A DNA stretch of 64,000 bases from NCBI RefSeq assembly GCF_040784935.1, contig NZ_CP160680.1:3814501-3878500 (forward strand). The letters run 5' to 3'. Numbering within the stretch: position 1 is the first letter of the stretch; each line of letters starts with the position of its first letter. A program made the position numbers and the translations under genes. Under the pieces are notes generated by a model. That model had not been told where the DNA came from. It worked only from the letters and a program-made list of their open reading frames with translations, and searched no databases. The DNA is from Lewinella sp. LCG006 (GTDB lineage Bacteria; Bacteroidota; Bacteroidia; Chitinophagales; Saprospiraceae). Below, piece by piece: positions 23,176 to 53,330 of the stretch.

Positions 23176-23179
23176 GGGG

Positions 23180-23237
23180 AAGGGCATTTAGGCGAAGGGC
23201 GAAGGGCATTTAGGCGGAGGGGCTTTAGGGCATGGGG
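23180..23237 (+). repeat. GGGC-rich short repeats before the four-helix-bundle gene
   Basis: GAAGGGCATTTAGGCG occurs twice, followed by GGAGGGGCTTTAGGGC. Similar sequence in inverted orientation (GCCCCAAAGCCCTTAG...) lies at about 23823-23860, beyond the four-helix-bundle gene and the MITE-like element. Confidence 0.45.
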
Positions 23238-23269
23238 GTATAAATTTGGATAAAGAAAAGAATAATATA

Positions 23270-23632
23270 ATGAGTAGACATTTTCGATTCGAGAGCTTAC
23301 AAATTTGGCAGGAGGCGGTTGCCGTAGGCGATGACCTATTTAACTTGGCAGATACGCTTGAGAAAAGAAAGTATTTTCGTTTTGCCGAACAGTTGAGGGG
23401 GGCTACTCTGAGTATTAGCAATAATATCGCAGAAGGATCGGGCGATGATTCAGACAAAGAATTTAGAAGATTTCTAAAATATGCTCGTCGATCCGCCTTC
23501 GAATGTGCCAACATTGTCATCATTTGCCAACGAAGAGGATATTTGAATAAAGAGGAGAGAGAAAGTTGCTATGAACGTTTGGACATCCTTTGTCGAAAGA
23601 TTCAAAACTTCCGAAAAGCATTAAATAAATAA
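23270..23632 (+). CDS. Four-helix-bundle protein (23S rRNA intervening-sequence protein family)
   Basis: A 120-residue all-helical protein beginning MSRHFRFESLQIWQEAVAVG. The pattern LRGATLSISNNIAEGSG...EFRRFLKYARRSAFECAN is that of the S23/IVP four-helix-bundle family, first seen inside 23S rRNA insertions and common as stand-alone genes in Bacteroidota; their function is unknown. The ATG at 23270 matches the usual N-terminus; one at 23246 adds eight polar residues. It interrupts the adaptor and ATPase genes and is bracketed by GGGC-type repeats, so it looks like an insertion. Confidence 0.85.
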   Translation: MSRHFRFESLQIWQEAVAVGDDLFNLADTLEKRKYFRFAEQLRGATLSISNNIAEGSGDDSDKEFRRFLKYARRSAFECANIVIICQRRGYLNKEERESCYERLDILCRKIQNFRKALNK

Positions 23633-23772
23633 TTCGAGTGTGCTACAAATTAGTGGCTTTTGTAGTTATTGATGATTCTGTGATTTATAGCTAAAGGGGC
23701 TAAGGGCTAACCTTCATTTAATGGTACTCACCTATAGAGGTATCACAAAATTGTAGCACACTCAAATAATTC
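23627..23772. mobile_element. MITE-like element with 13-bp inverted ends and 9-bp direct repeat
   Basis: The element spans 23636-23763 (128 bp). Its ends are GAGTGTGCTACAA and the exact complement TTGTAGCACACTC. AAATAATTC stands immediately outside each end (23627-23635 and 23764-23772), as expected of a target-site duplication. There is no coding capacity. The left direct repeat overlaps the stop codon of the four-helix-bundle gene. The mobilising transposase is not in the window. Confidence 0.75.
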
Positions 23773-23887
23773 AAAATAATAACGGTGGACTAAGTATGGG
23801 ACGGTCAACCTTCTTGCAATACGCAAAGCCCTCTGCCCCAAAGCCCTTAGTCCTCCGCCACTGGCCGAAGGCCGAAAACAAACAACA

Positions 23888-46319: not shown

Positions 46320-46751
46320 GCGTAGTGCAGAGTGCGGTAATACTTCCGACCTCCCACTTCCCACTTCCGACTTCCGGCCTTGAGCGTTAGGTGGTACTTT
46401 TACACCCTTACACTTTTCCAACTTTTACACCTTTTCGGGTGCGTAGTGCAGAGTGCGGCAATACTTCCGACCTCCCACTTCCGATTTCCGACTTCGGACT
46501 TCCGGCCTTGAGCGTTAGGTGGTACTTTTACACCCTTACACTTTTCCAACTTTTACACCTTTTCGGGTGCGTAGTGCAGAGTGCGGTAATACTTCCGACC
46601 TCCCACTTCCGACTTCCGACTTCGGACTTCCGGCCTTGAGCGTTAGGTGGTACTTTTACACCCTTACACTTTTCCAACTTTTACACCTTTTCGGGTGCCT
46701 AGTGCAGAGTGCGGCAATACTTCCGACCTCCCACTTCCGATTTCCGACTTC
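46320..46751. repeat. Tandem array of 121-128-bp repeats
   Basis: Three full units (46320-46440, 46441-46568, 46569-46696) and a partial one (46697-46751). Each begins GCGTAGTGCAGAGTGCGG (unit 4 GCCTAG), goes through a run of ACTTCCG heptamers, then GGCCTTGAGCGTTAGGTGG and TTTTACACCCTTACACTTTTCC. The units differ mainly in the number and sequence of heptamers. It fills most of the gap between the BNR-protein and tricorn genes. Open frames across it are by-products. Confidence 0.9.
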
Positions 46752-53114: not shown

Positions 53115-53330
53115 GTTATCTCAAGGCTTGACCATCAACCATTCTGAAAGTCGGAAGTCGGAAGTGGGAAGTCGGACATTGCCATCAAACCATCAACCAC
53201 CAACAAACAACCATCAACCATCAACAAACGCCCGAACAAACAAACCCTCCAACCCTTACACCCATCCAACCAATTCAGTAGCCTTTTTCCTCAGTTCAGT
53301 CGAAAAAAGTAGCCCGTAGGTACCTTTTTA
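53115..53330. repeat. GGAAGTC heptamers and CATCAACC-type low-complexity repeats
   Basis: AAAGTCGGAAGTCGGAAGTGG and following bases (53142-53176) are the heptamers of the 46.3 kb array. They lead into CCATCAACC/AACAAAC tandem low-complexity sequence (about 53170-53235). No gene is supported here; the open frame across it consists of repeats. Confidence 0.65.

Follow-up and report, generated by a model that had tools for sequence, protein, structure and literature searches.

The question raised by this locus is what separates a pair of ABC efflux genes in the window, the whole 64,000-nucleotide stretch of Lewinella sp. LCG006 DNA that was analysed, and which enzyme might have brought it there. 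An earlier note had described a MITE-like element 128 bp long, with 13-bp ends that are exact complements and a 9-bp direct repeat, and the sequence reads as claimed, with GAGTGTGCTACAA at 23636–23648 and TTGTAGCACACTC at 23751–23763, the two ends pairing over 21 bp if three mismatches are allowed (Table 1). The favoured reading, with a probability of about 0.95, is that this is a MITE of ISKra4 type, moved in trans by an ISKra4-family transposase and now orphaned.

The element and its setting

The element is short and non-coding, as it contains no ORF of ≥80 aa, and it lies under the size limit of ∼300 bp for MITEs. Its ends are shared with an IS, it is flanked by a duplication, a sister copy has an empty site, and there are multiple copies, although in low number. 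Since no ISKra4-family transposase is encoded within it, the element is filed as a non-autonomous derivative and not as an ISKra4 IS.

Table 1. Features of the element and of the adjoining gene (window coordinates).
Feature	Position	Strand	Remark
Four-helix-bundle / 23S rRNA-intervening-sequence protein (IVP) gene	23246..23632	+	PF05635, TIGR02436; host sequence, not element
Left copy of the 9-bp target-site duplication, AAATAATTC	23627..23635	.	contains TAA stop 23630-23632
MITE, 128 bp, non-autonomous, ISKra4-type ends	23636..23763	.	
Left terminal inverted repeat, GAGTGTGCTACAAATTAGTGG	23636..23656	+	identical to G069 ends
Right-hand 42 bp	23723..23764	+	86% match to second own-genome copy
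Right terminal inverted repeat, inward, GAGTGTGCTACAATTTTGTGA	23743..23763	-	13 bp exact, 18/21 vs left end
Right copy of the 9-bp target-site duplication, AAATAATTC	23764..23772	.	

Within the efflux locus, the four-helix-bundle gene has the membrane-fusion gene on one side and the ATPase gene on the other. That the insertion lies exactly behind this gene, as had been proposed, is borne out by the left 9-mer, which includes the stop codon of the ORF, and the insertion therefore left the gene intact. It also follows that the element is probably younger than the four-helix-bundle gene, judging from the sequence of the junction.

The element is flanked by AT-rich sequence of low complexity, which might favour a chance combination of inverted and direct repeats. 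An exhaustive scan of the window, however, found 21 exact 13-bp inverted pairs, and only in this element were the flanking bases repeated at ≥8 of 9 positions, whilst among the 57 inverted pairs within 300 bp that arose in 200 dinucleotide shuffles, not one had 8 or 9 of its flanking bases repeated. In the host genome (G000; 7.5 Mb, single contig) the end 13-mer occurs 13 times with at most one mismatch, against once for a reversed control pattern, and the ends are also common to a complete IS and to other genomes. A chance origin can therefore be regarded as negligibly probable.

A second alternative is that the inverted repeats are mimicked by the long hairpin of a conserved structured RNA, or of a bidirectional terminator or attenuator. 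The intergenic site in a transporter locus agrees with this, as does the strong predicted fold of the single strand at 23620–23780 (−43.4 kcal/mol, z = −4.1), and a transcribed element could form a long hairpin between the two efflux-locus genes. An Rfam search, however, gave no match to the element (one chance snoRNA match, E 0.2, lies outside it), and the sole terminator-like match is a 5-pair stem (observed 1, expected 0.8). Unrelated loci carry the same ends together with 9-bp direct repeats, which a terminator does not need, and the element is missing from relatives at the window locus, making a structured RNA or terminator very improbable indeed. Scans with sigma-70 and Bacteroidota-type patterns found no convincing promoter adjoining the element.

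A cognate autonomous IS and its transposase

When the 21-bp end was searched in 298 genomes of the taxonomic family, GAGTGTGYTACAAATTAGTGG was found to bound a complete IS of 1596 bp in one of them (G277:C252). This IS has perfect 21-bp ends (GAGTGTGTTACAAATTAGTGG), from which the left end of the window element differs by one base (C/T), a perfect 9-bp duplication (ATTTCATTT) and one ORF of 476 aa. The product of this ORF scores 227 bits against the NCBIfam model NF033572 (transpos_ISKra4), passing the cut-off of 205, so that the search suggested by the earlier note for a transposase gene bearing the same ends has yielded one. By this association, the ends of the window element appear to be of the kind on which an ISKra4-family transposase acts. 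Within such ends, the positions G5, T6, G7, T9 and C11 are invariant.

Relatives of the G277 transposase with 39–62% identity occur in three further genomes (G251, G021 and G234), all between similar GAGTG ends. Perfect 9-bp duplications (GAATAATTT, TTTTGAATT) are present at the G234 IS and at one of the three complete ISs of G251, the flanking repeats of the other two being poor (3/9 and 5/9 bases). In G069, each of eleven ends is found no more than ∼50 bp from where a contig stops, a pattern that multi-copy ISs produce by breaking short-read assemblies, and of the family transposase only a fragment was seen in this genome. The window element and the G277 IS have no clear sequence in common besides their ends, and the element therefore need not descend from that particular IS.

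Upstream of the G277 transposase ORF (L068:1839–1900), a frame opening with ATG meets a run of eight A (GAAAAAAAAGAC) and then a stop, and a −1 shift at this run would connect it to the main ORF. The interruption may be a mutation, as the G251 relative is a single ORF of 494 aa, or may represent programmed frameshifting, which has been reported in the ISMich2 group.

No ISKra4 transposase was detected with the NF033572 profile in the host genome and three congeners (G000–G003), nor by a search of the same genomes with the G277 protein, which in the host genome alone was extended to E up to 1 (best E 0.05). The window element is therefore a non-autonomous orphan, and as far as the assemblies show the same is true of the elements of the genus Lewinella. 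It is probably a fossil that would be immobile unless a related IS arrives.

Further copies, empty sites and targets

Sequence searches of the host genome revealed a second full copy of 112 bp (C1:1073155–1073266), which shares the right 42 bp of the window element (Table 1) and lies between TTTTGATTT and ATTTGATTT, with 8 of 9 bases repeated. Single left ends are present at 956104 and 2198160, with weaker ones at 5605560 and 3508657, so that in all there are few, namely two complete copies, two good single ends and about two degenerate ones. At the site in G002 (L. cohaerens) that corresponds to the 112-bp copy (G002:C5), the element is missing but flanking bases differ as well, and the junction is not clean.

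Two other repeats were observed in passing. One of ∼100 bp (GGGGCCTCCCTCCCTAAGGTCGGGCGCTAGG..., L003:1570–1672) adjoins the 112-bp copy and has ∼10 relatives in L. cohaerens. The other is a short repeat of GTGTAAAAGTGTAAGGGTTGG type (L077:1767–1804 and 2599–2636) with dozens of occurrences in the host genome and in G003; pieces of it lie in the window at 46399–46673 and 53248–53271, including three copies 128 bp apart.

Beyond the host genome, non-coding elements with such ends bring the number of genomes carrying short forms of 112–163 bp to six (G000, G002, G279, G277, G268 and the MAG JAFMDF), those outside the host genome measuring 130–163 bp. Several have flanking repeats of 9/9 or 8/9 bases, whilst the two JAFMDF elements have poor ones (5/9 and 6/9). 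The search for the same ends with 9-bp repeats, which the earlier note had suggested, has thus returned further copies both in the same genome and in relatives. The Lewinella elements fall into two interior types, one comprising the window element and the copy at 1.07 Mb, and the other, with a TTGGTTCCCCGTCATTTATGGCGG-like interior, occurring in G000, G002 and G003. No plasmid relatives were found at E 1e-5. Four exact 17-mer matches in viral contigs lacked a second end and were taken as chance, as was a match in G005 (L021) without the end motif.

These short forms bear on a further alternative, in which a full-length ISKra4 IS inserted at the window site and lost its transposase there by internal deletion. 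Internally deleted ISs do occur, and the low copy number would fit, but comparable short elements are present in other genomes too, and the 112-bp copy has both a shared interior and its own flanking repeat, from which it follows that the short form inserted at least twice. Deletion in situ is therefore considered very unlikely.

The earlier note had also proposed an empty-site comparison in a sister strain, and this was successful in part. In L. cohaerens a copy of 136 bp lies between CAAAGATTA and CAAAGATTT; the host genome has a sharp empty site for it, with both flanks meeting at one slightly shortened copy of the target. At the window locus, on the other hand, G002 and G004 have neither the four-helix-bundle gene nor the element, so that the comparison there is coarse and gives no one-step empty site. 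The gap between the membrane-fusion and ATPase genes is ∼15 bp in G002, the membrane-fusion protein of which is 96% identical, compared with 712 bp in the window. An empty site was also sought at other four-helix-bundle genes of the genus, but these are only 26–34% identical and their flanks do not correspond.

The 712-bp stretch without a counterpart in G002 and G004 (23176–23887) holds decayed G-rich repeats of AAGGGC type before the four-helix-bundle gene and a C-rich stretch after it. The gene itself may be part of an inserted unit.

The 9-mers flanking 38 ends are 90% A+T, mostly with T at position 4 and A at position 6, giving the palindrome WWWTNAWWW, to which AAATAATTC conforms. The pattern xxxTxAxxx fits 18 of 23 sites compared with 4.1 expected, the maximum in 10,000 trials with letters permuted within each site being 12, although this statistic is indicative, as sites from the same lineage are partly interdependent.

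The agreement of the ends, the duplication, the other copies, the cognate IS and the sister empty site upholds the original description of a transposed non-autonomous element. Under the preferred reading of a MITE moved in trans, the four-helix-bundle gene would originally have been followed directly by ...AAATAATTCAAAATAATAACGG, with one copy of the 9-mer. A DDE transposase of the ISKra4 family (Mutator-like, p-MULT 4) would have recognised both GAGTGTGYTACAAATTAGTGG-type ends and cut the AT-rich palindromic target with a 9-bp stagger, inserting the element over the stop codon of the gene. Repair of the staggered cut would then have produced the 9-bp direct repeats.

Comparison with known systems and significance

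The p-MULT 4 group comprises the ISKra4, ISMich2 and ISAzba1 groups and has been described as having IRs of 18–39 bp with a conserved terminal C, DRs of 8 or 9 bp and a presence in Bacteroidetes, with a circular intermediate considered probable and some members of the ISKra4 group inserting 13–17 bp upstream of a promoter (PMC3942029). The present elements are alike in IR length class, terminal C, 8–9-bp duplications and Bacteroidetes host, the cognate transposase in G277 passes the ISKra4 model, and all measurable features agree with those published. They differ in that the window element has no transposase, and the palindromic WWWTNAWWW target is not mentioned in the parts of the p-MULT 4 description that were consulted (PMC3942029).

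Other MITEs of Bacteroidota offer partial parallels. MITECca01 of Cardinium is likewise short and non-coding with ends in common with an IS, but it is derived from IS982, has its partner IS in the same genome and is present in high copy number (PMC9769881). BrickBuilt and other MITE-like elements of Porphyromonas gingivalis are also intergenic and non-autonomous with IS-shared ends, but these ends are of the IS5 family, and the elements contain minisatellites and number ∼19 copies (PMC4596501). No description of an ISKra4-family MITE was found in the open papers searched.

It is a tentative and rather unlikely proposition that these elements form an undescribed ISKra4-family MITE lineage of the Saprospirales, which would target WWWTNAWWW, would have outlived its transposase in Lewinella, would carry at least two interior types in several species and would possibly have had its hairpin co-opted between genes. 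Otherwise, the window element is ordinary genome debris, well preserved but of an ordinary kind. The analysis links an observation made blind, from sequence, to a defined IS family, and the ISKra4 family would gain from it a Saprospirales MITE lineage together with its target motif.
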